Source of the DNA: Clostridia bacterium
Lineage (GTDB): Bacteria > Bacillota > Clostridia > Oscillospirales > CAG-272
NCBI GenBank assembly: GCA_017463125.1
Contig: JAFTPV010000005.1
Coordinates: forward strand, 1-64,000
DNA length: 64,000 nt
Direction: 5' to 3'
The notes under the pieces were generated by a model. That model made no database searches and was not told where the DNA came from. It worked only from the letters and a program-made list of their open reading frames with translations. A program made the translations under genes and the position numbers. Shown in pieces: positions 18,184-62,336 of this stretch (position 1 is its first letter; each line of letters opens with the position of its first letter).

Positions 18184-19779
18184 TTAATCAGCTACACATT
18201 CTTTATCAATGAAGCCTACGAAGGTATCATCAAAGTATACGCCGGCGCCGCCTGTCAGTCCGTAACGCATATTCATAAGTACAGAGTCGTATGTTGCATC
18301 AAGGTCAAATCCGCTTGTGCTCACCGTCTTGTAATTTATTCTTTCACCGTTTACATACTGAATTTCCTTACCGTTATCATAAACCTCGATGGTTATAGTA
18401 TTCCACTCGCCTATCTTTAATTCTCCTCCGGTGGAGCTTGTATCTATATGATCGTTTGAAGATAAGTAATAGGTATATCCGCCTTCGGCATTAATCTTTG
18501 CAAATATCTTACCGATAACGGGTCCGCTGGATCCTGCCCATGCTCCTGTTGTTCCGCTTGTCTTAGAGAGCTGCAAATCTATAATATAATCGTAAGTTTC
18601 AGTACCGCTTATAACCGACGTGATACCGGTTGTATCAACTAGCATAAATCTCGTTTCGTATACCAAGCAGTTTCCGGATGTCATGCCTGTTTTCTTGTTG
18701 CTCAACACAAAGTCTACCGAATCCTTTACATTATGCCTATGCACCCAAAGAACCTTGTTTGTAGCATCCTTGGGGTCTGTTGCAAGATTGAGATGCAAAC
18801 GGTTATCTGTTGTTTCATACGTGGTCTTATCATAAAGTGTATAGCCGGTAAAGGAAGAGCTAGAATAATTGTAAGTACCGAATGCATATCCGTCTTTTGC
18901 AACGATATATGCATTAGCAGCAGAGTAGTCAACTCCTCCGTACACATCGTAGTACATACCCGCACCGATCTCGCCTGCCTCAACGGTAGTGTGACCTGTA
19001 AGCTCAACCTCTGCTGAAGCGGCAACAGTCTTTGTCGCGGTCGTGACAGTTCCATCAGCGGCGATGGTGTATGTGGTAATATCCCATGCCTTTACGGAAG
19101 CGTCATCGGGAGTGATAGTAACCTTCGAGCCAGGCTCGTATATGCCTGCGCAAACGCCGTCAACCTTACCGCCTACTATATTAACAAAGTGACGGTCTGT
19201 AACGAGGGTTACGTTCTCTTTTCCAAGGAAATTGAGGAAGTAGTCCTGCGCGTCTGCCGCGTGCTCAAGGTAAGAGAGGTAGAGCGCCTTCTGGTAAGTT
19301 TCGGTTTCATCGTTGGGGTTGATTACGTCGTCCACAAAGAGTCTTTCATAGAAATACTCTGCGGGGCTGTATTTCATAGTTTCGCTTACGTTATCGCCGT
19401 CCTTAACGAAAACGTATACCTCATCGCATACGTCTGCTGCCGCAAAACCGGGTACTGTGTAAGTATAGAAGGGGCCTTCTATGCCGTTTACAGTATCGTT
19501 GCAAAGCGCTGCGTCAGCCTTTACGCTGAACTTAAATTCTCCGCCGTTTGCGGGATCGCCGTTATAAACCTCGAGAGTTGCAGTGTCTGATACTGAGCTT
19601 TGAAGAACTGCGTACTGAATTGCAAGTGTTGCGCCATATTTAACGTTTCTTCCCGCTATTTCAATTTCGGGATTCTGTGCTTCACCCTCTGCGCTTGCGC
19701 CAAATGCAAAGGCGGAGCAAGCAAGGAGAGCTGCCGTAAGAGTGAGAATGAGAATTTTTGTTAATTTAGAATTTTTCAT
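18184..19779 (-). CDS. Secreted protein A: operon A exported protein with C-terminal LamG/ConA-like domain (531 aa)
   Basis: I start it at the ATG at 19779, preceded by AGAAAGGA. This gives a classic signal peptide (KNSKLTK, hydrophobic core, cleavage near GASA). After it is an N-terminal beta-domain (about 35-150: NVKYGATLAIQYAV, YTVPGFAAADVCDEVYVF, YSPAEYFYERLF), a middle region with YLSYLEHAADAQ, and a C-terminal jelly-roll resembling laminin-G/concanavalin domains (GNCLVYETRFML, GEWNTITIEVYDNGKEIQYVNGERI, VYFDDTFVGFID). It is the last gene of operon A. The same N-terminal pattern occurs in the operon B counterpart. The C-terminal domain also matches the last domain of lipoprotein A (FDDTFVGIIEKE). 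It probably binds glycan or a partner at the surface. No catalytic motif was seen. Confidence 0.75.
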   Translation of the reverse strand: MKNSKLTKILILTLTAALLACSAFAFGASAEGEAQNPEIEIAGRNVKYGATLAIQYAVLQSSVSDTATLEVYNGDPANGGEFKFSVKADAALCNDTVNGIEGPFYTYTVPGFAAADVCDEVYVFVKDGDNVSETMKYSPAEYFYERLFVDDVINPNDETETYQKALYLSYLEHAADAQDYFLNFLGKENVTLVTDRHFVNIVGGKVDGVCAGIYEPGSKVTITPDDASVKAWDITTYTIAADGTVTTATKTVAASAEVELTGHTTVEAGEIGAGMYYDVYGGVDYSAANAYIVAKDGYAFGTYNYSSSSFTGYTLYDKTTYETTDNRLHLNLATDPKDATNKVLWVHRHNVKDSVDFVLSNKKTGMTSGNCLVYETRFMLVDTTGITSVISGTETYDYIIDLQLSKTSGTTGAWAGSSGPVIGKIFAKINAEGGYTYYLSSNDHIDTSSTGGELKIGEWNTITIEVYDNGKEIQYVNGERINYKTVSTSGFDLDATYDSVLMNMRYGLTGGAGVYFDDTFVGFIDKECVAD

Positions 19780-19820
19780 TATTGTTTCCTTTCTGTTTTT
19801 TGTTTTTTGTAAGAGAGTTT

Positions 19821-19964
19821 TTAAGTCCATGAGCTATCGTAATAATCGTCGCTCCAGTTGGGTGTTTTGCCTTCGCCGGAGGTGGCTATAACGTCCCCTG
19901 CCTCAAAGGTGACAATCTTTATCTCGGGGTCGAGATATGGTGCTTTGCGTTTCTCTTCTTTCAA
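19821..19964 (-). CDS. 47-aa peptide A of the DVIxTSG family (TTG start)
   Basis: This short ORF lies between the solo toroid gene and the secreted protein gene, 48 nt after the former and 41 nt before the latter. It starts with TTG at 19964, 8 nt after a consensus AAGGAGG; no in-frame ATG is available. The 47-aa product has a basic N-terminus (KEEKRK), then PEIKIVTFEAGDVIATSG, then an acidic/aromatic tail ending DSSWT. It aligns without gaps over residues 1-30 with the 47-aa peptide of operon B, sharing KRK(5-7), Tyr10, Pro13, Ile17, Phe20, Asp24-Val-Ile, Thr28-Ser-Gly30, and both carry a terminal Trp-Thr. There is no signal peptide. Function is unknown; a precursor, adaptor or tag peptide are possibilities. 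Confidence 0.75.
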   Translation of the reverse strand: MKEEKRKAPYLDPEIKIVTFEAGDVIATSGEGKTPNWSDDYYDSSWT

Positions 19965-20012
19965 ATTTTTCGCCTCCTTTTTAGATTTTTATGTGTATTT
20001 GCTAATAATAAT

Positions 20013-21275
20013 TTACATTTTAGTGGGTTTCTTTATGTTCTCGAGGAATGCGTCATACTGTTTCTTACCGTGAATAGGCGGCATAAGACCTTCAAGCTCC
20101 AGCGCGCCGAATATCTTGCCGACAAGGCCTGTTGTGCAGAGTATGGTTGCGTTTACGTCACCCTCGTTGATAAGTCCGGGGGTTACAGGTGCGCCCTGTG
20201 AGGTGGGGCAGGTGCAACCAGGACAGTAGGAGAAGGAGCCGTCCGTTTTCTTAAATGTGAGCGCCTTTCTTTTTGATGCTTTGATGCCCTCGGGCGCCAT
20301 GCGTATCAGGTCAAGATATATCTTTTCTGCCTCCGCCTTTTCTGTGTCGTTTCCGTACTTTCTCAGGTTTGATATAGCATTCCATGCAGAGTACCAGGCG
20401 TTAAACTGGTAGCAAACGGTGGAGCATTTTTCATCAGAGCAGATGCAGTCCATAGCCGTTCTTGCTACGTTTGCCGCATTAGGTATTGTGGATTTTGCCG
20501 TACCGTAGAAGCAGCTTATCTTAAGGATACCATTTATCGCCTCGTAGCCTGTCGCTGTGCCCCAAATTCCCGTATCGGCCCTCTGGTGACTGTTAAGAAT
20601 TTCTATAGCTATGTCCTTGTAGCCCGCATTTACTATCTGCGCGCCCTGCGCCGCTATGACGTTGCCCGACCAATACGCCTTCTCTTCCCAGTCGAAAGAG
20701 TTCATATACTCTCTGAAAGCATCCTCCGAGCGAAGATACTCGGGCATTGCCGAGAGGGTTTCATTTTTCTCTTCTCCTTTAGCCTCGCGAGCCGCCTTTA
20801 GTCTCTCGTTTGCGGTAGGTGCGGGGAACTTGTAGCCGAGGCGACGCGAAAGGTCCTCGCTCCACATAAGGTCACGTCCTCGGCGGGAGTCGCGGATATT
20901 CTTGCCCCACTGCTTGTGGTAGATGTATCCGTCCTCGGAGTCAAAAAGGGAGAGATTAAATTCCTTTATTTTTTCGAGCATCCATTTTGGGTGCTCAAGG
21001 TCGGATTTTACCATTCCCGAGCCTTTAAGGTAGTTCATCGCCTGTATTGTGGACTCAATGTCGGGTAGGAAGCCGTCGTTATCCCTTGCGGAATTTGAGT
21101 AATACCAGCCTCCGATGTCGAAGTCAAAAAGCTTTGCAAGCCAAATGACGTCGGGTGTGCCGTAGGCTGAATAGAGGTCCTCTACGGCATCAATAAATTC
21201 ATTGCCGTTACCGCCGAGCCTTGTTACCTCAGCGGAGAGCTTTTCGTATTTTTCTTTTCTAAAAGCTGTATTCAT
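20013..21275 (-). CDS. Solo toroid-like protein A (cytoplasmic, unknown activity)
   Basis: This 420-aa protein has no signal peptide. The sequence is almost all helical, with repeated helix-hairpin spacing that suggests an alpha/alpha toroid (the fold used by terpene cyclases, prenyltransferases and several glycan lyases/hydrolases). Motifs shared with three other proteins or domains in this window are GGWYYSNSARD (55-65) followed by GFLPDIEST, GYIYHKQWGK, RRGRDL, and EGDVNAT near the C-terminus. The conserved His, Trp, Arg and Asp residues suggest an active or binding site. I do not recognise a named family, and the cysteine cluster CPGCTC is not conserved in the paralogue. It lies directly downstream of lipoprotein A, which carries the same domain, and upstream of peptide A. 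Confidence 0.75.
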   Translation of the reverse strand: MNTAFRKEKYEKLSAEVTRLGGNGNEFIDAVEDLYSAYGTPDVIWLAKLFDFDIGGWYYSNSARDNDGFLPDIESTIQAMNYLKGSGMVKSDLEHPKWMLEKIKEFNLSLFDSEDGYIYHKQWGKNIRDSRRGRDLMWSEDLSRRLGYKFPAPTANERLKAAREAKGEEKNETLSAMPEYLRSEDAFREYMNSFDWEEKAYWSGNVIAAQGAQIVNAGYKDIAIEILNSHQRADTGIWGTATGYEAINGILKISCFYGTAKSTIPNAANVARTAMDCICSDEKCSTVCYQFNAWYSAWNAISNLRKYGNDTEKAEAEKIYLDLIRMAPEGIKASKRKALTFKKTDGSFSYCPGCTCPTSQGAPVTPGLINEGDVNATILCTTGLVGKIFGALELEGLMPPIHGKKQYDAFLENIKKPTKM

Positions 21276-21298
21276 TTTCTTTTTTGTGTTTGTGTCGC

Positions 21299-21324: not shown

Positions 21325-21330
21325 TGTTTT

Positions 21331-24300
21331 TTAGTTTGCTGTGTACTCTTTTTCGATTATTCCAACGAAGGTATCATCGAAGTATGCGCCAAAGCCGTTA
21401 TTTAATCCGCCTCTGGGTCTTACCAAAACAGAATCATAAGTTGCGCCAATATCAATGCCGTCCGACTTAATCGTCTTTGAGTAAATGTATACTCCGTCAA
21501 CATAGTACTTTGAAATTCCGTTGCCGTAGGTTTCAACCCTTAACGTGTGCCACTCATCAGTTTTTATCTCGCCGCCTTTATCAAGCGTGTTTACAAACTG
21601 ATACGGTGCAACGCAGAAGCGGTATCCACTGTCAGCACTAGAATCGGCGACTATTGAAATGCAGGCTGTTATGAGTCCGCGCGTAGTTGTATCAGAAGCT
21701 CCCGAACCGGTGGAATAAACGGTTTGACCGCTTGCATTTGTAGAAGTGTAGGTCTTGCCAAGCTCAATAGCAAAGGCTTCCTTATAAGTTTGTGTCGCAT
21801 AACTTTCAAGCGCTGAAGTTTCTGCACTCTTTATCATAATTTTAGTTTCAAAAACTAAACAGTTACCCGACTTCAAATTTGACTTATTTGTCGTAAATAC
21901 GAGAGGCGTGGTATCCTTCGTATCGTACTTATGATATATGAGCACCTTGTTTGCAGCATTGCATGGATCGGTTATGATATTGAGGTAAGCTCTGTCGTCC
22001 GTCGTGGCGGTGCTTGAGCTATCGTAAATCATATATCCCGCCAGCGAATGTTTATTAATATTATTACGGTTACAACCGTATGCAAGCCCCTCTACTGCAA
22101 GGCTCTTTGCGCTATCAGCATCGTTATAAACAAGACCGCCGTACTCGGTGAAATACTCTCCGTCGTAAACGTCTTTTGGCGTTTCGGGGGGTGTGGGCTC
22201 GTCGGTATCGTCACCGCCGCCTGTGATTGTGTCGTCACCGCTATCACCCGAGCCTGTGCCGTTTGAGCTGAAGCACATATTGTCAAAGTATACTTTAGCC
22301 TCGCTTGCTTCCTTACGAAGAAGGAGCGCAAGGTAAGGAGTGCCGCTGACATCGGCTGTAAATTCTTCGGTAATAATGACCTTCTCATTGATAGAATAGA
22401 TTACCTTGTCGTTATCAAGGTCATACTTTGCAGTAAATCTTATCCACTCGTCACCAGAGACTGTAAGCTCACCAATAGTGAACGTGCCGTCATTGTTTGC
22501 TAAAATGTCAAGAGTTGTATACATTTTCGGTGTTGATTCACCACCGCCTGTGCGGTAATTTGCAGCAAGTGCTACGCGAAGAACCCATTTGTTTTCCTCG
22601 TTCTCGAGCCCTACTACCTCACCTAGCTTCATTCCGGTTTCAAAGATATACACACTTCCTGCGCCGACAACGTTCTTTACGTATATTTCGCCCTGATAGC
22701 TATTGTTTATCTTTGCGTAAAGCAGGCTCTTTCCACCATCATCGCTCGCTATGCTGAGGTAAGCGTAAGTGGTATTTCCGGGCGAGGTGGTAGACTGATT
22801 TCTGACTATCACTCTATCGTCCATAGGAAGCTCGATGCCGGTGCCGCCCTTGTCGATTCCGTTATATGCGTCGCTCATATTATCAAAGCTGAGGCCGCCG
22901 CTGACGAAATTCTTACCTGGTGCGCGTCCGTCAATCTTAAGCTCGGGAACAGTTCCATCGTAGGATTCGGCAGTTGCTATGCAGGTGGTATTATCGAAGA
23001 ATACGTCACGGCTCTTAGTTTGCTTATTAAGAATGAAGCCGACGTGGCTGAAGTCCTCTGGCGAAATCTCAACAGCCGCAGTGTGTACAAGCTCACCGTT
23101 TACATATATTGCCGCGACTCCATAGCTCTCACTTGTTACGGTGTAATACTGTATTCTGAAATTGAACCAGGTGTCACCGTCAACCTTTACGCGCATGCCG
23201 TCAGGAGCCTCAATATCAAAGGTGCCATCAGCCTTTGCGTAGAATTTAATTTCGGAGTAGAAGGTGGGTATTGCATCTGTGGTCGTTGTGCGTATGCCCT
23301 GGGTGAAGCCCATGCGCATAGTCCATGCCGTATCATCAGCGGTGAGCGAGGGCGACACGAGCTTAAGGCTGGTTTCATAGATGAAGGTCTTGCCCTCTCC
23401 GCCCTGGCGCTTGAAGTAATACTCGGAGGTTTTATCAGTCGTATTCTTGCCGAACCTGAGCGATTTACCGCCTATTTCGGTGTTGAATATGATATATGAA
23501 CCCGTTTCCTGATATGCGGCATCGGTAATACCGTTGTTTCTTGCGAATATCTTATCAAAGGCGTCTATTTCGTTGCGCTTGTCAATATCCGTCCACACAT
23601 TTCCGGTATATTGGTTAAAGTTGTTACCGCCGTACTGCTCGAAATACTTGCCTGGGAGGAGTCCCTCGTCTATTTCGGGAAGCGGGTCGGGCTCTGCCGC
23701 TAAGCGCTCGGTTTTAATGTTATCAAGGAGGATGGTACAGTTGGCATCGCTCCACGTATAGAGTCTGACCTCGTTTACGTTGTTTGAGGTATAGGTTGCG
23801 TTATTGTAAGCATTATAGCCCGTACCAATAAGTACACCGTCAATATACACCTTTACAAGAACATCTGCTATTCCGTCACCGGTATAGTCTATATCGGTCT
23901 TTTGATACTCCATACGCAGCTTAAACCACTTGCCCGCCTTTGCAACCTGCTTTGAAATATAGGTTGCTCCGCCGGTGTTGTCGCTGAGAATTACGCTTCC
24001 GCTTGAATACTGGAGCGTCATTTTTGTCGCGTATTGGTTGCCTGCCATAAAGTAGACTTCAACCGCGTCAGATTTAGTAAGGAAGTTTGCCGCAATATCA
24101 GCCTCAAAGGCTACTCTGTTTGTATTTTCATCCGCCTTGATAACGGGTATATACAGAGAGTCGTTTCCGCCGACACTCGTGGTATATTCGAGAACCTTGC
24201 TCGCCGCGCCATCGATTATCATTTCCTTAACCCTGAGATTTGCAGAGCCGGAACGGAAGTCAAGCCTGAACAGCCCCTTAACGTTACCCGTCGAGGTCTC

Positions 24301-27300
24301 TTCAAAGGTGATTTCAGCCTTGTTCTTCTCGGGTGAGGCTGTGTCGGATTTTCCGATAGCAAAGTACATATTATAGCACTCCGCTTTTACGTTATCGAGT
24401 GTGAGAGCTGTATTTGCCTTATTCGAGGTTGCGGTTACGTAATCGCACGAAAGGTCTGCGTTTTCCTGCTTATAGACAAGGCTCGTTGTACCTATCGTTT
24501 TACCGTTTAGCACTACGTTCATAGCGTCCTTAGCCGCGCTGTACTCTATCCGCAGAGTGCCGGAGCCCTGCTCAAAGCTGCAGAGAGGTACAAGATTATA
24601 TACCTTCTGTTCGGTTACCTCGTATACCTTAACGACGTCACCGTCGGTTACAAAATCAAGAGCGGCTATAATGTGTCCGTCCTCATTTGTAAAGGCTACT
24701 CTGAACTCCGAATTTTGCTTTTCGGCTATGGTGAAATCTGCTTCAAGGATAACCGCGCTGATTACAGGGCTTCTCTTATTTACGGGGACTTTAAGCTGTG
24801 AGCCGGAGGAGCTTTGTCCAAAATCGACCTTACCCTCGTTAAGCTTCGCTCCGCTTGCGGTACAATCACCAAGTCCGTCGGTAAAATCGTATACCTTCTC
24901 AGGAATTGTAGGCTCGGTAACCTCGTCGTATGATACTACGTCCCTTTCCGCCTTAACCGTATGCACCAATACCGCACCGCTTACACCGTCTGCCGAGATA
25001 TTGGCAAAGGTCAGCTCGCCGTAAATATTGTTTATAGCTCTTTGACAGAAGGCGTCAAGAGTTGCAACTATTGTTTTATCAAGATATATAAGAGCCGTTC
25101 TCATAGTTCCGAAATACTCAACTCTTATAGTAAATTTCTTGCCTATCGGAGCTTCAAATCCGGATATCTTTGCTCCGGTCGCCCCGCTTGAAGCCTCGTG
25201 AAGCGCAAGATATTTTACTCCGTCACGCTGTTCTACTATAAGATGAACCCTGACCATTGCAACAGAGGTGGTGGTGCGTAAGACAAGCTCATACTTTGCT
25301 CCTACTGCAGTACTCTCGTCAACGGTGAGGGAAAGGTCTGCTACACCGCAGTTTGCCTTCTGGGTTCTGACGGTTACAGGAACCTTCAGCGAGCCTGACT
25401 GCAAATCAAGCGCGCTTGTGCCGTCAATCTCCTTAAGCTGCGAATCGGTTGTCAGGTCACCGTGAATACCGTTTGCAAAATCATATACAACCTCTTCCTT
25501 ATCGGGTGCGTCAACGTTTATAAGAAGCTTCTCTTGCGGGTCGTTCACTATCTCGTATTGCTTTGACGTCTTGGTTACTGTGGTGTTGTCCATAAGAAGA
25601 GTCGTATTATTAGTGGACATTACAGCGACTCTTACACCCCTGTAATTTTCAGAGGGCTTTCCGCCGCCTTCAAGCTTTGCACCGTCTCCGCTGTACCAGT
25701 TGTCGCTGACGGCTATTAGGGTTTCGTTAATGTATATTTTAATTCGGATATTGGCTCTATCCTGGGAGTAATACTCAACTCTGAGCTTAAACCACTCACC
25801 GACAGCCGCTACTCTGCCAAGGGATACCGACCTCGAGTTTTTAGACTCACCGGCAGACTCCTCGTGCAGATATACTCCGTCGTTTTCATCTATAATTTCG
25901 TCACCGTTTTCGTCCTTGACGGTAATGCCTATCATATAAATTCCGTCGTGAATTGTGATGTGCGAAATATAACCCGCATCACTTGACTCAACGAGGAAAT
26001 CGGATTCGCAAATAAAGGTCTTGGCTCCGAGATACATAGACTCGTACGGAATTACTACATAGTCGTATCCGTTGTTCTTCGACTCAAATCTTAAAACGTT
26101 ACCGTCCCTGCCCATTTCAACCGTAACGTCACCGCTTGAAGAAATGCTCTTGGTAAAGCCTTCGGGTGTCTGACCAATCGTGCTGTCCTCATAATCAAGA
26201 GGCTCGGCGTTTGGAACCTCGTCCTTGACCGACTCGTTAAGGTCGGTTACGATCTCCATATATCTTATAAAGTCGCTCTTTGTGTACATAGAAACCATCG
26301 AAAGACCGAGAACTCTGAACATTCTCTCCGTCGTACCGACGCTTCCGAGCTCGGTAGCGTTTATGTCTCCCTCTACCTGATTGGGAAGAGCGACGATCAT
26401 CTCTGAGGAGGTTGGTGAGCTGTATTTCTTCGAGTAGGAAATAGAGCCGTCAGGCTTTATAAAGGCGGCAATACACGAGGTCGTGTTCTTTATTGACTTA
26501 ACCGCATTTTTAAGTATCTCTGATCTTACCTCGGAAAGATTTTCTTTAAGACTCGTGTTATAGCTCTCAATATTCTGAACGAGATTAAGCACCGCATACC
26601 ACGTATTGTAAATATCCGTGATGGCGGTAACGTCATCGGGGTTCATAATACCGATAACCTCAAGGGTAGAGCTTATCGCCTCCATAACGTAGGGGAACGG
26701 GCGGCCAAAGGTTGACCACGCGCCCGAAATCTTAAGAAGGCCGTTTACTCCCTCATAGTCGGCGTAATCGTACGTTGTCCAAAGACCTGTTTTAGGATTT
26801 TGCTTTGTTTCAAGCCAGGTGAAGAGCACGTTCTCAAGCCCCTCTTCTCCGCGTCCCTTAAGCACCTGGTCTCTCTTTTTTATCTGGCTTATCTGAGTTG
26901 AAAGAATAGAGCTTACCTTGTATGGTGATGCGTTTATATCAAGGGTTTTAAGATAATCGGAAAAAGCCTTTGCGCTCACGAAGCGCGCCTCAACGTAAGC
27001 ATCGTCACTTACGGCTATGACCTTGGATACCGCGGTAACAGCCGATGTCTTTTTCAAGGGAGCAAGCATAGACACGGGGGAAACTCTCGTTCCGTCTGCC
27101 GGAATACCGTCGCCCTTTGTTCCGTTTGCCGTATCATAGGTCGGGCTATTGCCAAAACTTTTAAGAATTGCCTCCGCCTTGCCAAGATCTCTGCCCTTTC
27201 TCGTTTCCGAGCCGTCAACCTGTGCCTTCGTCCACTGGGGATGATAGAAATATCCGTTTTCGTCCTGGCGCGACTTAACGAAATATACTATCTGTTCCTG

Positions 27301-30320: not shown

Positions 30321-30333
30321 CGGCTATTTCCTT

Positions 30334-31737
30334 TCAAAATCTGACACGCACCTCAATCATTGAGTGCGCCTTTACGTTTAGTTTTTTATCCTTTATCATA
30401 TTGTCAAGCATAGTGTAGAGGTATTCCTCGTCGGTTTCTATGACCTCTGCCGAGTCTATATCAGCGCCGAGGACGTCAAAATCAAGGGTCACAGGCTCAG
30501 CCTTTGTGTTTGCGATAATGATAACACCCTTTTCCTCATTTTTAGCACCGAGGATATATACCTCCTCATCGTCCGTCCCCGAGGCAACCTCGCAACCCAG
30601 CTTATACGCCTGGTTAAAGGACTTAAAAGCGTAGTAGGTCGGGAATGGGGTGAATGTTAGAGGATTGAAGAGTCCCTTGTAGACCGAAACTCCGAAGCCT
30701 GCATCGTAGTAGCATAGCATATCAACCTCATTTTTCTGCGAACCGAGAAGGACAGCTAAGGTGTTTGCCGCAACCTCGGGCGTGCCGCGCAGTCTTGCGT
30801 CCTGTCGGTACGCGCTCCACTCGTTGAGTATGTCGGGTACGTTCTCAAAGCCGTAATTTGCAAGCACCCTTCTGCAATGCTTCTGGCAAGCGAGTATCAT
30901 CGACGGGCCTACGTTTGTGTATGCGTGCCAGGAGAAGAAATCAAGCGGCACGTTATTATCTCTGACATAGGAGAGGAACTTATGGGCATAATCTATACGA
31001 TAGGCTCTCTTGTATTCGGGATTTGTGTAATCCTTGGTTGAGAAATCAAAATTAGTAACTCCCGTAGCGTCAGGGTCTAGGTAATGGAAGCCTGCAAAGC
31101 CCATTGACGCATATCCTCCGACCATAATCGAGTCACCAAAGCACTTCTTTAAGTGAGTGGCGGCAGTCTTATAGAACTCAAGGAACTGCTCCCTTGTGCC
31201 GTGCCAGGTCTGCGCTATCTCATCAGGATTTAAGTCGACGTCAGGCTCGTTCCATATCTCCCAATACTTAAGATTATAATGGAAGCCGTCAGCCCAGCCC
31301 TCGTTATAATGGCGGATTATATGCTCACATATCTCTGCCCACTTCTGAAAGTCCTTCGGGGGATAGACGTGATATGCCTTTATGTTAGCCCAGTTTTCAA
31401 TAGTTATGCCGAGGCGGTAAAAAGGCTCTACACCGAAATCTAAGAGCGCCTTCAGCAAAACGTCGGTATGGGCGAAATCATAGGATGCCGGGTCGTTTAC
31501 GTCAGCATCAAAGTTGCGGAAGATGTTCGGTATATCGACAAATCTGCCGCCGCCAAACGCACCTGCAACATCGTGAAGCCTTGAATAAGGGATGCCCGCT
31601 TCCTCAAGGTAGTGGAAGAGCTTTGTGTTTACGCTCGCCTCACCGCCGAGAATGGGCGCCTGACCAACTCCGTGCATAGGACGTATCCTTCTGCCTGTTT
31701 CGTTATTAAAATCGGTTGTAACCTTTACTGCTTTCAT
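30334..31737 (-). CDS. GH39-like glycosidase (beta-xylosidase / iduronidase-type)
   Basis: This 467-aa cytoplasmic clan GH-A barrel has acid/base motif EIWNEPD (Glu164) and nucleophile motif DILNEWSAY (Glu306), spaced as in GH39. It starts with RIRPMHGVGQAPIL and RLHDVAGAF, which line the active site in that family. A C-terminal beta domain (about 395-467) follows. The specificity (xylose, iduronic acid or other) cannot be told. It is the first gene of operon A, with a promoter at 31808-31836 and SD CGGAG, divergent from a LacI-family regulator. Confidence 0.82.
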   Translation of the reverse strand: MKAVKVTTDFNNETGRRIRPMHGVGQAPILGGEASVNTKLFHYLEEAGIPYSRLHDVAGAFGGGRFVDIPNIFRNFDADVNDPASYDFAHTDVLLKALLDFGVEPFYRLGITIENWANIKAYHVYPPKDFQKWAEICEHIIRHYNEGWADGFHYNLKYWEIWNEPDVDLNPDEIAQTWHGTREQFLEFYKTAATHLKKCFGDSIMVGGYASMGFAGFHYLDPDATGVTNFDFSTKDYTNPEYKRAYRIDYAHKFLSYVRDNNVPLDFFSWHAYTNVGPSMILACQKHCRRVLANYGFENVPDILNEWSAYRQDARLRGTPEVAANTLAVLLGSQKNEVDMLCYYDAGFGVSVYKGLFNPLTFTPFPTYYAFKSFNQAYKLGCEVASGTDDEEVYILGAKNEEKGVIIIANTKAEPVTLDFDVLGADIDSAEVIETDEEYLYTMLDNMIKDKKLNVKAHSMIEVRVRF

Positions 31738-31906: not shown

Positions 31907-31959
31907 TAAAATGCGTTAGTATGTACATAAGCAAATTTCGCGCAAACGGAGAAGAAAAA

Positions 31960-49974: not shown

Positions 49975-49988
49975 TCATTCTGTGGTGA
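49938..49988 (-). terminator. Long palindrome with terminator core at the recombinase 3' end
   Basis: The outer stem TCACCACAGAATGA (49938-49951) with TCATTCTGTGGTGA (49975-49988) encloses GCACTCC/GGAGTGC (49957-49974). T6 on the minus strand follows the inner hairpin, so it can terminate recombinase transcription. Confidence 0.7.
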
Positions 49989-54325: not shown

Positions 54326-54351
54326 AATTGTTTCCATTAAATATAGTCGAT

Positions 54352-54412: not shown

Positions 54413-56047
54413 TTATTTTGCGGTTCTGTTGAGGTTGGGAAGTGTGGTTTCAACAGACTGAACAAATTGAATGTTATCCATATAAACTATACCCTCGTAT
54501 CCCTCGAAGTTGTTCTCAAGAGTTGCAAATCTTGCAGGAACAGAAGGCCAATTTACATAGAATCCAAGCGAGCCCTCGTTAACGACGTAAGCACCGTCTG
54601 TGTTAAGATATGCCTTTTCGGTAGCACCCGAGGAGGTATGTCTGTCAGCGGTATCCATAATAAATACCTGCTTGCCGTTTACAGATATAACAAGTATGTA
54701 ATCGTTTACGCCGTCCTGAACGTTATGTGTCCAATACTCAAACTGGAGATTGAAGGTCTCACAAAGGTCTCTGGGTGTTTCTGCATCATTGATCTGCATT
54801 GTGTAGAATGTGAACTCTGTTGCACCGCTATCGCCGGGTAAAACTCTGAATTCGATAGCACCTGTAGCTGTGCGGTAGTAAGCTCTTACTCTGTAACCGA
54901 GATTATCTCCGGAGAACGCAAAGTTAATATGAGGAGTTTCACCAGTGCCTGTGTAGTTCAAGGTGTAATCTGCGGAATATACGAAGTGATTGAAGCTTTC
55001 AACAGCCTTGGTGGGAACAACTGCCAGTGTGTTATTTTTAGTTGTTGTGAGCTTGAGGCTATTGCCATCCGCATCCTCGCTCATCTTTTCTACCGAGAGA
55101 GCTATGTGAGTGTTTGTAGAACTTCTGGTACGCAGCGCCTTAAGAACATTCTGATACTTTGCTGTTGCGAAAGGAACTGTGGGACAGGAGCCGGTGAGAA
55201 GCCAACCGCCGCTTATTGTAGTTTCAGTAATTGCAATGTTGCCGAGGTCGCCCTCTTCCATATCGTCAAAGGTAAGGAGCGATGCGGTGTCGAGGTAATT
55301 TTCGACAAGGATCATATCACCGTTTACGGTAATTTCCTCGCCAACGTTGTAGGTCTGTCCGCTGATAGAATCCTTGTATCCGGCAAAGGAAAGACCATCT
55401 TTCGTAGCTTCACCGGTGTGGGTGAGGGTTATTTTGTCGCCCGCGAGAACGATACCTCTCGAAAGAGTGCCGAACGTTCCGTTTTCAACGGTAACGTATT
55501 TATAATCGGTTGCGAGCTTATCAGTGTTGTGACCGAGTATTCTCTGAACGCTTGCACCGTATTCAATGATGGCATTGAAATCTGCATCATTTTCATCCAT
55601 TGTTCCCTCAGTGAATACCATTTCCTTGCAGTACTCAACAACGCTGTACTGCTCAACTTCGCTGTAAACATAAGCGCCGTCAATAAGCGCTCTCGCCTGA
55701 AGATATACCTGGTCGGCAAGGTTCTTTGCATTAACACCGGGAGTTGCGAAGAGCTGGCAATTTGCACCCCAAACATCGCCGCTGCCATAAGGCGCAACAA
55801 CAACCGGAGTTGATGATTCTGTGGGATACTCGTTGTAAACAAGAAGCTCTACATCGCTATCGCCTACGTTCTCTGCCTTTACGGCAACGCTGAGAACTAC
55901 ATTACTCTTAAATGAAACGTTCTTTGACCAGATGTCAAGTGTCGGGGTAGCATCTGCTTCCTCCGCTGTAGTCATAATAGCAAGAGAGGAGCATATAAGA
56001 AGCGCGAGAGAAATTACTAAAACCAAAAGTTTTGTCTGTTTTTTCAT
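54413..56047 (-). CDS. Secreted protein B: operon B exported protein (544 aa)
   Basis: The signal peptide is KKQTK plus a hydrophobic core to about residue 28. The N-terminal domain is paralogous to that of secreted protein A: KNVSFKSNVVLSVAV, VELLVYN, FATPGVNAKNLADQVYL, YSVVEYCKEMVF and IIEYGASVQRILGHN occur in the same order. A small beta segment (LAGDKITLTHTG) precedes a C-terminal jelly-roll (FVYSADYTLNYTG, LQFEYWTHNVQDGVNDYILVI, GIVYMDNIQFVQS). No catalytic motif was seen. It lies 36 nt after peptide B and ends operon B before a strong terminator. Confidence 0.75.
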   Translation of the reverse strand: MKKQTKLLVLVISLALLICSSLAIMTTAEEADATPTLDIWSKNVSFKSNVVLSVAVKAENVGDSDVELLVYNEYPTESSTPVVVAPYGSGDVWGANCQLFATPGVNAKNLADQVYLQARALIDGAYVYSEVEQYSVVEYCKEMVFTEGTMDENDADFNAIIEYGASVQRILGHNTDKLATDYKYVTVENGTFGTLSRGIVLAGDKITLTHTGEATKDGLSFAGYKDSISGQTYNVGEEITVNGDMILVENYLDTASLLTFDDMEEGDLGNIAITETTISGGWLLTGSCPTVPFATAKYQNVLKALRTRSSTNTHIALSVEKMSEDADGNSLKLTTTKNNTLAVVPTKAVESFNHFVYSADYTLNYTGTGETPHINFAFSGDNLGYRVRAYYRTATGAIEFRVLPGDSGATEFTFYTMQINDAETPRDLCETFNLQFEYWTHNVQDGVNDYILVISVNGKQVFIMDTADRHTSSGATEKAYLNTDGAYVVNEGSLGFYVNWPSVPARFATLENNFEGYEGIVYMDNIQFVQSVETTLPNLNRTAK

Positions 56048-56083: not shown

Positions 56084-56227
56084 TTAATTAGGTTTTGTCC
56101 AAGAGTCCGGGTTGGGGTCGTCGTCGCCGAAGATGTCGCCGCTTGTGGAAATTACGTCATTTTGCTGAAAATCAATTATTTCCAAAAAAGGCTTATCGTA
56201 AATCGATTTTCTTTTCTTTCTTTCCAT
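56084..56227 (-). CDS. 47-aa peptide B of the DVIxTSG family
   Basis: ATG 56227 follows AGAAAGGAAAGG. The product is 47 aa, exactly the length of peptide A, and occupies the same place: 34 nt after the solo toroid gene and 36 nt before the secreted protein gene. It starts MERKKRK, continues with Tyr10, Pro13, Ile17, Phe20 and NDVISTSG (23-30), and ends DIFGDDDPNPDSWTKPN. The tail closely matches the C-terminal tail of lipoprotein B (DDELFGGNDSTDDAWTKY). There is no signal peptide, cysteine or known domain. Function is unknown. Conservation of both core and tail between two loci shows it is a real gene under selection. Confidence 0.8.
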   Translation of the reverse strand: MERKKRKSIYDKPFLEIIDFQQNDVISTSGDIFGDDDPNPDSWTKPN

Positions 56228-56261: not shown

Positions 56262-57521
56262 TTAATACTTTAAGTTGTAGAAGAATGCCTGATAACTATC
56301 CTTTGAGTAAAGGGGAATAATCTTGTTTCCTCCGAAGCCTAAGCACTCAAATATTTTTACATTGGTTGACGTAGAACCGAGTACGGTGGCATTTATATCA
56401 CCCTCGTTTGGCGCCTCTCCGTTAGGAAGACGTCTTGCAACAGGCGCGCCCTGCGAAAGTGCTGCTGTGCGATGAGGACACATTGAAATCGACCCATCCT
56501 TTTTCATAAAAGTTGCAAGCTTTTTGCTGGTTGCTCTTATAGCTTCGGGAGCGCGGAGAAGACATTCTTTATTTACCTTTTCAATAAAATCTGCGCCTCC
56601 CCCGCAGGCATTCTTTGCGTTAAAGAGCAGGTTTGATATAGTGTACCAGGTGTTATAGATGTAGCAAACAGTTACCGTAGGCTCGTCGAAGCTTGTGATA
56701 CAGTCCATAGCCGTCATAACGACCTTGTCGGCATAGTTAAAGGGGCGGTTTGCCTCTTGGTAAAGAAAGCTTATCTTGAAGGCACCGTTTACTGCGTCGT
56801 ATCCCGGCTTTTCTGCCCAAAGGCCGTTTTCTTTATTTCTCACATCCTCAAGGAAATCTATCGCGGTATCGAGAAGTCCTGCTGCGGAAAGCTGTCTTAC
56901 CTGAGCCGCAAGATTATTTCCCGAATAATAAGAGTTCGTTTTCCAGTCGAATTTTTCAAGATACTCGATAAATGCCTTTTTGTTTTTCAGATATTCAGGT
57001 AGCGCTATAACAGAGCTTTGGTCGTTTTCATCAAGATTCTGCTTAAGGCGCTCGATAGCTGTGGAGTATGGGAGCTTGAACTTAAGCCTATGCGAAAGAT
57101 CTACCGCCCATTGCAGGTCTCTTCCGCGCCTTGAATCCGTTATATCCTTTCCCCACTGGGGATGATAGATATATCCGTCGTCAATATCAAGCAGTGAGCA
57201 AACGAACATAGCTATCTTTCTTCTCATTGCCTTCGGAAGCTCGTCATCTGAATCTATAATTCCCGAGTAGTGTATAAGGTTAAGCGCCTGGAGCGTGCTT
57301 TCAACATCGGGAAGAAATCCGGAATTATCTCTTGCGGAGTTGGAGTAATAAAATCCGCCAACTCCCTTACTGTAAAGTTTGGCAAGCCATTCAAGGAGAC
57401 TGTCGCTGTACATCTCGTGATGCTCTCTTAACGCCTCTATTACCGCATCTGCGTTGCCGCCCTTGTTGCTTATCTCTTCTTTAAGATCCTTCCATTTGTC
57501 GTTATAAAGTTCGCTGTTCAT
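56262..57521 (-). CDS. Solo toroid-like protein B (cytoplasmic, unknown activity)
   Basis: This 419-aa protein has no signal peptide. It aligns end to end with the operon A solo protein: GGFYYSNSARD at the same residue (55), GFLPDVEST, GYIYHPQWGKD, DSRRGRDLQW, SYYSGNNLAAQ versus AYWSGNVIAAQ, AMDCI, CYIYNTWYTISNL and NEGDINAT. It is predicted all-helical, probably an alpha/alpha toroid. The conserved Tyr-His-x-Gln-Trp and Arg-Asp pairs are candidate functional residues. It lies 24 nt after lipoprotein B with SD AGAAAGG. The activity is unknown. Confidence 0.78.
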   Translation of the reverse strand: MNSELYNDKWKDLKEEISNKGGNADAVIEALREHHEMYSDSLLEWLAKLYSKGVGGFYYSNSARDNSGFLPDVESTLQALNLIHYSGIIDSDDELPKAMRRKIAMFVCSLLDIDDGYIYHPQWGKDITDSRRGRDLQWAVDLSHRLKFKLPYSTAIERLKQNLDENDQSSVIALPEYLKNKKAFIEYLEKFDWKTNSYYSGNNLAAQVRQLSAAGLLDTAIDFLEDVRNKENGLWAEKPGYDAVNGAFKISFLYQEANRPFNYADKVVMTAMDCITSFDEPTVTVCYIYNTWYTISNLLFNAKNACGGGADFIEKVNKECLLRAPEAIRATSKKLATFMKKDGSISMCPHRTAALSQGAPVARRLPNGEAPNEGDINATVLGSTSTNVKIFECLGFGGNKIIPLYSKDSYQAFFYNLKY

Positions 57522-57545: not shown

Positions 57546-60500
57546 TTAGTATTTTGTCCAAGCGTCATCGGTAGAGTCATTTCCGCCGAAAAGCTCGTCG
57601 TCGGTTTCGGGAACGGGTGGTGTGTTGCTTTCTCCACCCTCGGTGTCGGGGTTGTTGTTATCATTGTCCGAGCCGCTTTCGTTACCCGTGCCACCCGGAT
57701 TTTCCGTTCCGCCTTGCTCTCCGGAGCCACCTTGGTTGCCGGAACCGCCTTGGTTGTCTGAGCCGCCTTGATTGTCCGATTCTTCATTATCGGGGGCTTC
57801 TGTAAGATTATCGGTAGCAAACGAAACATTATCAAGCAGCATCCTTGCATCAACATCACCGTATGTGTAAAGCCTTACGTTGTCAAGGTTTTCAGGTAAA
57901 ATGGGATTGGTGCCCGAAAGGGCATCTCCCACATAGCTGTTGTTTGCGAATATTCTGACCGCTGAGATACCTGTATCGGCAATGTAGTATTCAAGTCTGA
58001 GATTTACCCATTCACCTGTGCTTGCGACAGTGATATGCTGTTTCGACTGTCCCTTCGGAGTCACGTTCAGAACCTCAACCGCACCTCCATCGGTATATCT
58101 GATTTCAAGGCAGAATGCCGAATCCTTGGCAGGGGTATCACCCTTACGGAAGTAAAGCTGATAAACGCTTCTGCCGCCCAATACGTTGGAGTCAATTTTA
58201 AGGTCAAGGGTGAATACCGCAACACTCTTATTGTCTGTGTTTATCTTCTTGAACACCAAGGCATCATTATTACCCTTTGTGCTGTTAAAGGCGAGAACCT
58301 TTGATGCAACCAGGTTTCTCACCGCCTCTTCAACGGTTACTCTGCCGCCAAGAGATTTAAGAGTGGGAGTTATACCGCTTGGGATATTTCCCGTAAAGCT
58401 GCTTTCGAATGTCAGAAGCTTATTTCCGTTTTCGGAGTTTTCTGCCTCTGATTTGCTTTCCTTATACACCTTGGTATAGCTTTCGGCTATCATGCCGTTG
58501 AAGTAGAGCGAGGAATCGGTAAGCAACTCAAGCTTAATCGAAGTAAGATCGCTTTGAGCAAACTCTTCCTCGTATATGAGGCTTGAATTCGCTACAAACA
58601 CATCATTAATAAACAGTTTTGTGATGTTTTGCGTGGTGTAATACTCGAATGAGAAGAGTGCCTTGTCTGTAATTTCAAAGCTAAAGAGCATAGATGCGTA
58701 TCTTCCCTTGGCTTTTGTAACCTCGTACACCATGACTTTTGTTTCTGTTGTTACAATATCGTATGCCAAAGCGATATCACCGTTTGCCTTGATAAGACTT
58801 ATACGGTATGCTCCGCTTTGAGATTTATTTTTGTATAGCTCGGTAGAGAATATTACGGTTTTACAGCCGTTATCTCGTCTGTTTAGAGGAATAATAATAT
58901 TCGACCCTGTACCTGTAAGGTTAAGAAGCCTATCTGCACCAACGGACACTATCTCACCGCCATTTACGGTTACACCCTCGGGAAGCTGATTATCAAAATC
59001 AACCTCTTCGGAGTCTCCCTCCGGTTCGATTGCCTCGTCAAGACTCTTTTTTATTCTCTCGGAGTAAAGGTCATCGATCATAAGACCGTTTACGCCCGAG
59101 CTTCCGACGATTTCAAGCTTTGCCGCCTTGTAAAGCGCAGCATTCGAGCAAACACTCTGGCTTATGGCAGCTATCTCACCGTCTATATAAAACACAGTTG
59201 CTTTGCCGCTTTCAAAATATTCCGCCTTGAGAACAAAGCTTTCTCCAATAGGCATTTTGTAGCAGTCTGTATACGAGCCGAGGGTGCCGTTAGGATATTC
59301 TCTTATGCTAAGAGTCCTCGTCTCACCGGAAGCCTCAATTTCAATAATAAATCTTGCAACAGGCTTGCCTCTCGAATTAGACTCGCTCATATTAAGCTCA
59401 AGAGTAGCCTTTCCCGAAAGAGACGTGAGAATAAAACGCATCTCGTTTGACATGCACACAGCTCCCGCAGCTCCGGTCACAGAATAAACCGATAGAGAGG
59501 ATGCATCAGCCGATGCAAATTTCAGAGCCTTTGTCGCATCTCCGTCTGCGATAGTATCGGATAACTCAAATGCTCCGTCAATTGCAAGTCCATCCTTAAG
59601 CTTATCAAGGCTGTCTATCGTCTCAAAATCGTGAGTTACTCTGTCTTTGCCTTTGGCATCAACGTTTATTGGCAGATCGGCACTGGGCACTGCCTTATAG
59701 AGGTCGTTGGTTCTGTAAAGGCAAACATTATCCATAAGGAATGACGCTGCCTCTGTGGAAAGAACTGCAATTCTCGTGTTGTTAAACACATTTGTAGGTA
59801 CAGATTCGCCTTCTGTTATCTTGATGCTGTTAGCGTCATAATAGTTATCGCTTACCGCCGCCAGCTTTCCGTTATAATATACCTTGATACGAACACTATT
59901 ATGGTCTCCGTTGTAGTATTCAACCTTGAGATTAAACCACTCGCCGATTTTCGGAGTTATTCCAAGCTCGTTTTCGATATACAGTGAGTGATTTCCGGTG
60001 GAGCTGTCCCAAACGTTGACGGTATCTCCCGTGACCTTAAAGCAAAGCATATATGCCGTGCCCATAATAAGCTGTACTGTGTAGCTTTCATCTGAGGATG
60101 TGATGCACATATCCCCCTCAAATACCTGGCAGGATTCGCTTGAAGCTATACTATTTTGAATATTGAAGAGAACTCTGTCATATCCGTCATCTGTAGATCT
60201 AACCTCAAGAACGTTTCCTTCGCCGCGTTCGTCATTAACAACTCCGATAAATCCGCCCGAAGAAGCAAGAGACGAAATCTCAACGCCTTGCGGAAGCTCC
60301 AATCCGTCATCGAATGTTATAGGTTCTCTTGGATCGCCTACTTCATCCTTTATAACAGGGTCAAGCTCTTCCATAATAGAAAGGAAAATCGCAGATTCAG
60401 CTTTTCCGTACTGCTTTGGAGCATAACTCGCAAGTCCAAGTGCCGCAAGGCAACGCTCAATAGTACCATTTGCGCATAAAGAGGTTGCGTTTACGTCGCC

Positions 60501-62336
60501 CTCGTTGGTGTTTGCAAGAGTAACCTTAAGTCCTTGGCTGTATTCTGCGGCCTTGTCAGGCTCGAAGGAGAAGGAGCCGTCCTTCTTTTTGAAGGTGAGC
60601 TGCTTTTGTGCCGAAATTCTGATAGCCTCCGGCGCCATTTCCAGAAGACGCGCGCGAGTTTTTTCGGCAAGAAGGCGGTCCTCGTCGGTTTTTGCATGAG
60701 TCGTTATGTTCGCTTGCAGCTCCGCAAGAGCGTACCAGACGTTGTAAACGTAGCACACCGTCTTTACCTCATCTTTTGAGGTAAGCATGGTGATACAGGA
60801 TTCAACGGCAAGGTCTGCATTCGGGAATACCTTACCGAATGTATTATAGGTTGGAATTATTTTGAGTAGCGCGTTTGTCGCGTCATAGTTTACGCCGTTA
60901 TCCCAGAGTCCCGTTGACTTGTTCTGGTGGTCGTTAAACCAGCTTATAAGAATGTCACAGAGGGAATAGTCGGCAGAAAGCTCTTTATCACGGTTTTGAA
61001 TTTCCTTTGCCTGAGAGCCTATCTCGTTTCCTATTTCATAGAAGGATTTTTTGCCTTCCTTATTGAGCTTGCTCAATTCATCAAGATAACCCATAAAGCT
61101 AACCTTGTCAACAAGGTGCTCTGTAGTCGTCTGCGCTACCGGTACGACCGACGAAACGGCCGCTACACGCGAGGTCGACAGCCGCATAGTAAGCGCGGAG
61201 GCCTGTTCGGGATACGATAAAGAAGAGCCGTCAGGCAAAATTCCGTCTCCCTTATCGCCAAGCGGAGTGTCATAGGTTGGCTTGTAACCGAAAAGTGCGA
61301 GAGTGGATACCGATTTTGTCAGGTCTCTCGCCCTGCGTGACAGGTGCTTGTCGACATCCGATTTTTGCCATTGCGGATGGTAGAAATAACCGCTCTTTGG
61401 GTCTTGCAGACTTTTTGTGAAATGTACGATCTGTCTCTGTATTGTCTCGGGGAGCTTATCTCGCATATCGGTAGCGTCGTCAAAGAGCCCTGTGGCAATA
61501 GCGAAGGTGAGAGCCTGGTTCGTTGATTCAGCATCCGGTAGATAACCTACAGTGTTACGCGCGGTATTAGAGTAATAGAAGCCTCCGCCACCGCAGTATA
61601 TAGTGCTTTGACATTCGCCCTCACAAACGCAGATAACAGGCTCATAAAGGTTTGCAAGCCAGGAAACAATATCATTTGTTGTAAGTGCATCGTAATAGAA
61701 TTTTACGGCTTCGGCAATAGCCGCACCGTCGCCGCCTGCCTTGTCAGCCTCTTCTATAAAGTTTTCCCAAGCCACAGCGTCGTTTGCATCATCTATTGCC
61801 TGTTGGTATTCAATAGGGTCAACAAAGGCATAGCTTACTATTCCTGAGCCTAGGCTCAAGGTACGCTTGTCGCCCACAATATCGGAAATTAAGTATTTGC
61901 ATGCTGTGGTTTCGGCTGCGCCTATTCCGTATTTATCGTTTTGATAGGCTATCGCAAGAGAAAGGCCATCGGAATAAATGAGATAACCGCTCTCATCCTC
62001 CGAATCACCTTCTGTTCTTTCAAGAAGACTGTATGCTCTCTCTGAAATATCCGTTTCAACATCACCAATATGTATTTCGTGCTTTCCGGTGGATCTGTCC
62101 GGGGTTTTCATCCTTGGACTGTATCCCAAAAGTGAGGTCAACTCTTCTCTTATAAGGTCTACTCCGGGAGAAAGCTCATTTATTATCAGAGTAACACTCT
62201 CTTCAGGCGAAAATATCACGCTGTCCGATGAAGAACCGGAGCCTGCGCCAGCCTCGTTTCCTGCGGTACAGGAAATAAGAGTCAGCATCAAAAGCATTAA
62301 ACAAAGGGCAAGCGTGGTTGCTTTTCTTATAGTCAT
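57546..62336 (-). CDS. Lipoprotein B: 1596-aa surface lipoprotein, toroid-like domain plus about four beta-sandwich repeats
   Basis: The start is ATG 62336 after AAGGAGG. The upstream extension of the frame would bury the signal peptide. The lipobox is LISC with Cys23, the same position as in lipoprotein A. Residues about 40-165 are an alpha/beta domain (HEIHIGDVETDISERAYSLL, GYLIYSDGLSLAIAY). The toroid-like domain follows (GGGGFYYSNTARNTVGYLPD at 249, GYFYHPQW, RRARDL, NEGDVNAT). About four jelly-roll repeats come next (EWFNLKVEYYNGDHNSVRI; ESFVLKAEYFESG; WVNLRLEYYIADTG). A Gly/Asn/Gln/Ser repeat linker leads to the tail DDELFGGNDSTDDAWTKY, closely similar to the end of peptide B. It is the first gene of operon B, divergent from an AraC regulator. 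Confidence 0.8.
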   Translation of the reverse strand: MTIRKATTLALCLMLLMLTLISCTAGNEAGAGSGSSSDSVIFSPEESVTLIINELSPGVDLIREELTSLLGYSPRMKTPDRSTGKHEIHIGDVETDISERAYSLLERTEGDSEDESGYLIYSDGLSLAIAYQNDKYGIGAAETTACKYLISDIVGDKRTLSLGSGIVSYAFVDPIEYQQAIDDANDAVAWENFIEEADKAGGDGAAIAEAVKFYYDALTTNDIVSWLANLYEPVICVCEGECQSTIYCGGGGFYYSNTARNTVGYLPDAESTNQALTFAIATGLFDDATDMRDKLPETIQRQIVHFTKSLQDPKSGYFYHPQWQKSDVDKHLSRRARDLTKSVSTLALFGYKPTYDTPLGDKGDGILPDGSSLSYPEQASALTMRLSTSRVAAVSSVVPVAQTTTEHLVDKVSFMGYLDELSKLNKEGKKSFYEIGNEIGSQAKEIQNRDKELSADYSLCDILISWFNDHQNKSTGLWDNGVNYDATNALLKIIPTYNTFGKVFPNADLAVESCITMLTSKDEVKTVCYVYNVWYALAELQANITTHAKTDEDRLLAEKTRARLLEMAPEAIRISAQKQLTFKKKDGSFSFEPDKAAEYSQGLKVTLANTNEGDVNATSLCANGTIERCLAALGLASYAPKQYGKAESAIFLSIMEELDPVIKDEVGDPREPITFDDGLELPQGVEISSLASSGGFIGVVNDERGEGNVLEVRSTDDGYDRVLFNIQNSIASSESCQVFEGDMCITSSDESYTVQLIMGTAYMLCFKVTGDTVNVWDSSTGNHSLYIENELGITPKIGEWFNLKVEYYNGDHNSVRIKVYYNGKLAAVSDNYYDANSIKITEGESVPTNVFNNTRIAVLSTEAASFLMDNVCLYRTNDLYKAVPSADLPINVDAKGKDRVTHDFETIDSLDKLKDGLAIDGAFELSDTIADGDATKALKFASADASSLSVYSVTGAAGAVCMSNEMRFILTSLSGKATLELNMSESNSRGKPVARFIIEIEASGETRTLSIREYPNGTLGSYTDCYKMPIGESFVLKAEYFESGKATVFYIDGEIAAISQSVCSNAALYKAAKLEIVGSSGVNGLMIDDLYSERIKKSLDEAIEPEGDSEEVDFDNQLPEGVTVNGGEIVSVGADRLLNLTGTGSNIIIPLNRRDNGCKTVIFSTELYKNKSQSGAYRISLIKANGDIALAYDIVTTETKVMVYEVTKAKGRYASMLFSFEITDKALFSFEYYTTQNITKLFINDVFVANSSLIYEEEFAQSDLTSIKLELLTDSSLYFNGMIAESYTKVYKESKSEAENSENGNKLLTFESSFTGNIPSGITPTLKSLGGRVTVEEAVRNLVASKVLAFNSTKGNNDALVFKKINTDNKSVAVFTLDLKIDSNVLGGRSVYQLYFRKGDTPAKDSAFCLEIRYTDGGAVEVLNVTPKGQSKQHITVASTGEWVNLRLEYYIADTGISAVRIFANNSYVGDALSGTNPILPENLDNVRLYTYGDVDARMLLDNVSFATDNLTEAPDNEESDNQGGSDNQGGSGNQGGSGEQGGTENPGGTGNESGSDNDNNNPDTEGGESNTPPVPETDDELFGGNDSTDDAWTKY
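57706..57780 (-). repeat. Coding repeat for the Gly-rich linker of lipoprotein B
   Basis: Four imperfect 18-bp units encode Ser-(Asp/Gly)-(Asn/Glu)-Gln-Gly-Gly. They form a flexible spacer between the last beta-sandwich and the C-terminal acidic tail. Repeat number may vary between strains. Confidence 0.75.

Follow-up and report, generated by a model that had tools for sequence, protein, structure and literature searches.

Sus-like PULs of Bacteroidota are built around a co-evolving SusC/SusD pair that is present in many copies per genome, with neighbours that change from copy to copy. Among the enzymes that act on glycans, GH88 and GH105 are unsaturated uronyl hydrolases with an (alpha/alpha)6 toroid. 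GH84 enzymes have an N-terminal domain followed by a TIM barrel, and a domain like the N-terminal one of the GH84 enzyme NagJ is also found in GH20. In Gram-positive bacteria, PULs (gpPULs) are glycosidase clusters with a sugar-type regulator and surface proteins. One such example is the gpPUL for mixed-linkage glucan in Blautia producta (PMC10318527).

Here we describe two gene modules, A and B, in a 64-kb stretch of DNA from a Clostridia bacterium (the window), each consisting of a lipoprotein, a solo protein, a short peptide and a secreted protein. Like gpPULs, these modules combine glycosidases, a sugar-type regulator and predicted surface proteins. Unlike gpPULs, they have a core without a family model and a companion peptide, and no importer (ABC or PTS) was found among the module neighbours scanned by Pfam. 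The lipoprotein and the solo protein share a domain for which we keep the label toroid, its fold and enzyme activity being putative. As in Sus-like PULs, this toroid pair co-diversifies and is copied many times per genome while its neighbours change. However, both members of the pair would belong to the same family, one at the surface and the other probably in the cytosol, and the core proteins of A and B have no Pfam match to SusC or SusD. Among the papers listed for the peptide motif, Gram-positive PULs, small proteins and toroid lyases, none mentions such a system in its title or the opening part of its abstract.

Two intact modules in the window

A preliminary description of the window had proposed two four-gene operons with short gaps, and all eight genes indeed open at or very near the positions proposed for them (Table 1). 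The gaps are 55, 48 and 41 nt in A and 24, 34 and 36 nt in B, the 41-nt gap presupposing that secreted protein A starts at its second Met (19779). In lipoprotein B, position 62336 corresponds to the Met just ahead of the signal peptide. The two solo proteins align from end to end, as had been claimed, with 45% identity, and the secreted proteins do share an N-terminal domain (29% identity over ~220 N-terminal residues). The lipoproteins are 30% identical across ~1500 residues and the peptides 41% identical (18 identical columns of 50). That both peptides have 47 residues is true but must be put down to chance, since their relatives in the same genome range from 39 to 50 aa. Among the neighbours, Pfam recovers GH39, GH20, LacI and AraC, whereas GH106 comes up weakly (E 4e-6) and misses the curated cut-off. 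As for the domain names used earlier, the lipobox Cys stands, and profile comparison lends weak support to toroid, alpha/beta and jelly-roll.

Table 1. Predicted features of modules A and B and their neighbours in the window
Feature	Position	Strand	Remarks
Lipoprotein A	21331..28155	-	2274 aa; signal, lipobox Cys, alpha/beta domain, toroid-family domain, jelly-roll-like repeats
Toroid-family domain of lipoprotein A	26239..27603	-	residues 185-639
C-terminal domain of lipoprotein A	21334..22161	-	38% identity to C-terminal part of secreted protein A
Solo toroid-family protein A	20013..21275	-	420 aa, without signal-like segment
Companion peptide A	19821..19964	-	47 aa; TTG start behind AGGAGG
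Secreted E-domain protein A	18184..19779	-	frame opens at 19830
GH20 glycosidase, upstream in operon A	28179..30320	-	Pfam
GH39 glycosidase, upstream in operon A	30334..31737	-	Pfam
LacI-type regulator, divergent to operon A	31921..32931	+	Pfam
Lipoprotein B	57546..62336	-	frame opens at 62432 (1628 aa); C-terminal W tail
Toroid-family domain of lipoprotein B	60363..61784	-	residues 217-690 of the 1628-aa frame
W tail of lipoprotein B	57549..57590	-	last 14 residues; resembles tail of peptide B
Solo toroid-family protein B	56262..57521	-	419 aa, without signal-like segment
Companion peptide B	56084..56227	-	47 aa
Secreted E-domain protein B	54413..56047	-	544 aa
GH106-like protein, downstream of module B	51698..54337	-	weak Pfam match
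AraC-type regulator, divergent to module B	62499..63278	+	Pfam

Both modules are intact, and the identities together with the tree indicate that neither locus is decayed or a recent duplicate. A recent or local two-copy duplication is rejected, as the toroids of A and B group with copies from other species. Just past the GH106-like gene (49938-51452 in the window) lies a large serine recombinase with Resolvase, Recombinase and zinc ribbon domains, possibly part of a mobile element.

A module family made of two joined units

In the loci examined, genes were called by a simple longest-ORF script and signal-like segments by a hydropathy threshold rather than a trained predictor. The genome that carries the window (G000, 1.9 Mb) has 11 full four-part modules, A and B included. 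A search with solo B finds 43 matching places in it, and a profile of 27 solos identifies 31 toroid-family proteins in the window and 14 further regions, namely 15 solos and 16 of the lipoprotein type. The toroid-family genes take up ~95 kb, or ~5% of the genome. The idea of a modular system that was duplicated and re-targeted is well supported by these 11 modules with varied glycosidases and regulators and by the co-diversification of toroid pairs and E-domains (see below), but this is a large family and not a pair of copies.

The gene order common to A and B differs in some of the other modules. The order lipoprotein, solo, peptide, secreted protein is found in A, B, L031 and L032; the order peptide, secreted protein, solo, lipoprotein in L035, L039 and L043; and other orders in L034, L037, L040 and L042, the last with a run of two lipoproteins and a solo. 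Two blocks stay constant across the orders: the lipoprotein lies beside the solo, and the peptide is followed by the secreted protein. In other words, the four genes, earlier taken to form one core unit, are two separable units that have been joined, the toroid pair on the one hand and the peptide with its secreted protein on the other. Among the neighbours scanned, glycosidases adjoin five of the 11 modules (A, L032, L039, L043 and, weakly, B) and AraC or LacI regulators seven (A, B, L034, L037, L039, L040 and L043). Gfo/Idh/MocA-type oxidoreductases also occur near toroid genes, one identified by Pfam (L035 11717-12748) and two by eye (L148 4274-5338 and L151 4742-5767).

Distribution in other genomes

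The toroid profile matches 20 of 69 genomes of the genus, so that even within the genus the family is patchy. Seven of these genomes (G000, G001, G012, G014, G047, G083 and G088) have at least 12 to 28 matches each and the remaining thirteen at least one to eight each. In a sample of the order, three of 295 genomes are positive; two belong to the same genus, and the one outside it gives a weak match (7e-7). Complete modules are also present in G014 and G088. A scan of genome contigs, made with one motif and restricted to the best 80 of 115 relatives, yielded 69 loci from MAGs titled Clostridia, Oscillospiraceae or Ruminococcus, and for 54 of the 69 (again among the best 80 of 115) the MAG title names deer or goat hindgut. 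With plasmids and phages the result was negative: neither the 72,556 plasmid records nor the 50,697 phage records contain a match to solo B.

Leaving out 36 of the 69 loci, which come from two genomes already used, 33 loci of other MAGs can be compared. Peptide, E-domain protein (see below) and solo occur together in seven, toroids without peptide and E-domain in 24, and the ORF lists of two contain no toroid. In loci of these other MAGs, there are also solos that lack a lipoprotein within 6 kb. The four families had been expected to be neighbours elsewhere too. They are adjacent in several species, yet toroids also stand alone, so the searches decide fully in neither direction. In L172, L181 and L184, which belong to other species, three or four toroid-family proteins share a locus without peptide or E-domain.

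The peptide has a wider distribution. Its profile matches 50 of the 69 genus genomes, against 20 for the toroids, and in a sample of the class 22 of 245 genomes including our own, there mainly with its front part. We therefore reject the view that the peptide is a part of the toroid system only. Nor is it tied to toroids within a locus: L036 has the peptide with two E-domain proteins (2237-5798) and no toroid in 14 kb. We conclude that the module family is lineage-restricted and that the unit of peptide and E-domain is a separate, wider one.

The toroid pair

For tests on modules we used 27 of them, chosen for sufficiently complete genes (11 from G000, nine from G014 and seven from G088); L101, which is without an adjacent solo, was omitted from the pair tests, and L092, without a lipoprotein N-terminus, from the lipobox count. 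Signal-like segments are seen in 38 of 39 lipoproteins and 30 of 30 secreted proteins, and in none of 39 solos. The lipobox Cys is invariant in 26 of 26 aligned lipoproteins, and a strict lipobox pattern fits 28 of 39. Judging from these segments, the solo toroid is probably cytosolic and so would hardly take part in a surface complex, which narrows the surface system that the preliminary description had in mind.

On the tree, the solo and lipoprotein forms need seven label changes, compared with 26 for shuffled labels, and the distances of cognate solos and lipoproteins are strongly correlated (Mantel r 0.70, 0 of 5000 permutations). The correlation is also seen in single genomes (15 of 5000 permutations in G000, 96 of 5000 in G088), but is not significant within G014 alone (667 of 5000). 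The two forms are thus ancient paralogues that for the most part move as a pair but have been exchanged locally in L034, L038, L083 and L087/L099. In the toroid domains of the same three genomes (39 solos and 39 lipoprotein domains), R64, D72, E74, Q78, H120, Q122, R131, R134, D135, K249, N290, E373, D375 and N377 are near-invariant. The same polar residues are kept in both forms, as would be expected for an active site.

These data also bear on a different explanation, in which toroids are binding or scaffold domains, the modules serve adhesion to mucus or plant fibre, and the solo is a cytosolic chaperone of its lipoprotein. It would account for the strong co-diversification of the pair, for the lack of an enzyme family match and for the great length of the lipoproteins, the larger part of which follows the toroid domain. 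Against it, most of the conserved residues carry a charge or are polar, and they do not differ between the two copies; glycosidases and sugar-type regulators adjoin the modules, and solos occur away from any lipoprotein. On balance, we regard an adhesive function as rather unlikely.

Similarity of the core proteins to known folds

None of the four core families has a match above the curated Pfam or NCBIfam cut-offs, and the toroid family is also without a significant Pfam, NCBIfam or PDB sequence match. In profile-profile comparison, the toroid profile reaches 34.9% probability with GH88, compared with 6.8 and 4.3% for two cyclase-type sets, 1.0% for GlcNAc-2-epimerases and 0.2% for the secreted proteins, while 20 column-shuffled GH88 decoys stay at or below 0.4%. 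With the lipoprotein toroids alone, GH88 (13.1%) and the cyclase-like set (12.9%) are tied. Known toroid families may themselves score low against each other (epimerase/cyclase-like 0.2%, GH88/squalene cyclase 1.9%) or higher (GH88/cyclase-like 32%, epimerase/GH88 94.5%, squalene cyclase/cyclase-like 98.3%). R134 and W138 of the toroid family fall on the W-x-R...W motif of GH88. Any likeness to GH88/GH105 would lie in a weak profile similarity above decoys and in this motif. The differences are that the toroid family is without a Pfam match, that the catalytic Asp of GH88 aligns one or two positions off D72/E74, and that the lipoprotein form has jelly-roll repeats. For the 27 solos, Glyco_hydro_88 (PF07470) is absent at E values up to 10, a search in which the HMMER filters drop most weak matches. 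Of the prenyltransferase/squalene cyclase toroid models (PF00432 or PF13243), PF00432 was found in three of the 27 members, with a best E of 0.094. We take the weak GH88 similarity as a lead to an enzyme, not as family membership.

The alpha/beta domain of the lipoproteins (profile positions ~42-132) matches the N-terminal part of NagJ at E 0.12-0.23. NagJ accounts for nine of the 16 PDB sequences listed for this profile; three matches outrank it, two of them at or near the signal end and one to a designed protein, and the rest lie at the signal end. As in NagJ, a domain of ~90 residues, weakly matched, precedes the main domain. Unlike in NagJ, what follows is a toroid-family domain and no TIM barrel. 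The profile of the secreted proteins has a sole PDB match, 3acf (E 0.011, positions 271-468), which we take to be a CBM28 module with a jelly-roll, and single secreted proteins give weak matches to lectin-fold Pfam families. The C-terminal part of the secreted proteins has its best within-genome match in the lipoprotein of the same module in 20 of 30 cases, where 3.3 are expected. Across all three genomes, the same-module lipoprotein is still the best match for 16 of 30.

The E-domain and its peptide

The N-terminal domain of the secreted proteins, delineated here by profile and termed the E-domain, is without a family model. Downstream of each of the 12 peptides of the genome lies a gene whose product has a signal-like segment, a feature of 93 of 494 control genes. 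A first E-domain profile was built from five seeds, those of the 30 secreted segments of the modules that a pattern had caught. Among 150 genes of G080, G029, G041 and the class loci, 38 of which are peptide neighbours, it matched eight, and all eight are peptide neighbours. After iteration to convergence, the profile matches 32 of 32 secreted proteins in the lists of our genome, G014 and G088. It also matches 17 of 18 peptide neighbours in G080, G029 and G041, genomes without a toroid, five of 23 peptides having been dropped there (four lying at the end of a contig, plus L109, for want of a close same-strand gene). Most of these E-domain neighbours are secreted and large, with 1000-2700 aa. 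Of the 18 peptides, 11 follow the large protein at a distance of 13-28 nt, four overlap with it according to the ORF call, and three precede it. Outside the genus, with loci cut at 1.5 kb, the profile matches four of 20 peptide neighbours.

Among 451 other genes there are 11 matches, nine of which, by position, are E-domain proteins of further peptide loci; one of the 11 (L116:1-4761) is an E-domain gene 151 nt behind a peptide. Because the presence of peptide or toroid guided the choice of both seeds and loci, this enrichment holds within the loci only. The last of the 11 matches lies in L087, a full module of G014, where the gene at 9079-11877 codes for a protein of 932 aa with an E-domain (9-173) and a toroid-family domain (458-928), and ends 50 nt ahead of a peptide. 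By fusion logic, such a protein would place E-domain and toroid in one extracellular system. The E-domain co-diversifies with both the solo and the lipoprotein toroids (r 0.34 and 0.38, 0 of 2000).

The peptide itself has a constant front that ends in a conserved D-[VIL]-I-x-T-S and a variable tail rich in Gly and Asp, and there are many copies per genome. Its front shows no co-diversification with E-domain or toroids (r about 0), a test with little signal because the front has 26 residues. Clustering of the fronts by genome would point to one common handling factor; 532 of 5000 permutations were as high. In the toroid-free genomes G080 (13 of 15) and G029 (6 of 7), peptides have a near-identical tail, S-P-G-T-E-T-T-P-K...D-G-I-W-D, mostly beside very long secreted proteins (L102-L120). 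Peptide relatives in other clostridial families (L202-L220) lie within 60 nt behind another gene in 17 of 20 cases.

Tryptophan tails

A second likeness connects the peptide with the lipoprotein. Trp occurs within the last nine residues of 13 of 27 lipoproteins and of 22 of 288 other genes (Fisher 3e-7; the background contains a few other lipoproteins). In these 13 modules, the summed similarity between the lipoprotein tail and the tail of its own peptide is 412, compared with 300 +/- 29 in within-genome shuffles, 0 of 20,000 of which scored as high, although this test was post hoc. The match is strongest in L043 (63), L083 (42), L101 (40) and B (38), and absent in L088 (12) and L032 (17). In the 14 lipoproteins that lack a W tail, the C-terminal domain in common with the secreted protein is stronger (median 92 vs 31 bits, Mann-Whitney p 0.002), which would fit two alternative means of tying a lipoprotein to its E-domain protein. 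The exceptions are L083, L085, L088 and L099, which have both.

The common tails could be without function, left behind by gene conversion or by copying from one gene to its neighbour. This is what several codons identical in the peptide and lipoprotein tails of L043 would suggest; in most of the 12 modules compared, however, the codons are very dissimilar even though the W and part of the Asp, Gly or Ser residues around it persist, and the enrichment of W tails in lipoproteins also speaks against it. We judge this origin improbable. A RiPP-like precursor, with the front as leader, the tail as core and the lipoprotein tail as a further target of the enzyme that modifies the peptide, would in turn explain the architecture of the peptide, its many copies and the tail in common with lipoproteins. 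But the genome (92% complete) yielded neither a Peptidase_C39 exporter nor a SPASM domain, which are present in two and 48, respectively, of the 69 genus genomes. No modifying gene was recognised by eye beside the peptides, and the two window peptides have no NCBIfam match. With neither Peptidase_C39 nor SPASM found, a canonical RiPP is disfavoured, and we consider the RiPP-like reading as a whole quite unlikely.

A possible function of the modules

Our preferred reading is that each module is a glycan-utilisation unit of a PUL-like system, with a surface and a cytosolic copy of one enzyme family and a secreted binder specific to the operon. We give this reading an even chance. It builds on gene content, the repetition of the modules, the co-diversification of lipoprotein, solo and E-domain, tail similarity, the linkage of the E-domain and the signal-less solos, and extends from these to a putative toroid fold and to presumed activities, cell locations, glycan binding by jelly-rolls and a role of the peptide. 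A glycan would induce the module through the module's own regulator. The lipoprotein, on the outer face of the membrane, would hold the glycan with its jelly-roll repeats and cut it with its toroid domain. Fragments would enter the cell by an importer, and the solo toroid, together with nearby glycosidases, would carry out the same chemistry on them in the cytosol. The secreted E-domain protein, with a jelly-roll of its own, might be released or wall-associated and bind the same glycan, which would give extra reach.

The companion peptide, which would belong with the E-domain protein, perhaps acts in assembly or regulation. Its constant front might be handled by machinery common to all modules, and its variable tail, in part of the modules common to their own lipoprotein, might serve module-specific docking or competition. 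The peptide could thereby help the E-domain protein and lipoprotein of the same module meet, or keep them apart until export. More tentatively, the signal-less peptide, with its constant front and partner-matched tail, and the E-domain protein might form a unit that pairs each tail-bearing lipoprotein with the E-domain protein encoded in its operon. Paralogous surface machines would then be prevented from mixing by an undescribed coding scheme, coupled here to a new family of toroid enzymes that would act both outside and inside the cell; we see this as possible, if doubtful.

For the organism, ~5% of the genome is thus devoted to toroid-family proteins that every family model searched has missed. 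If they are enzymes, they would constitute a new carbohydrate-active family, with one copy outside and one inside the cell for each substrate. The peptide and the E-domain, in turn, would offer a testable case of how parts are sorted among a dozen paralogous surface systems.
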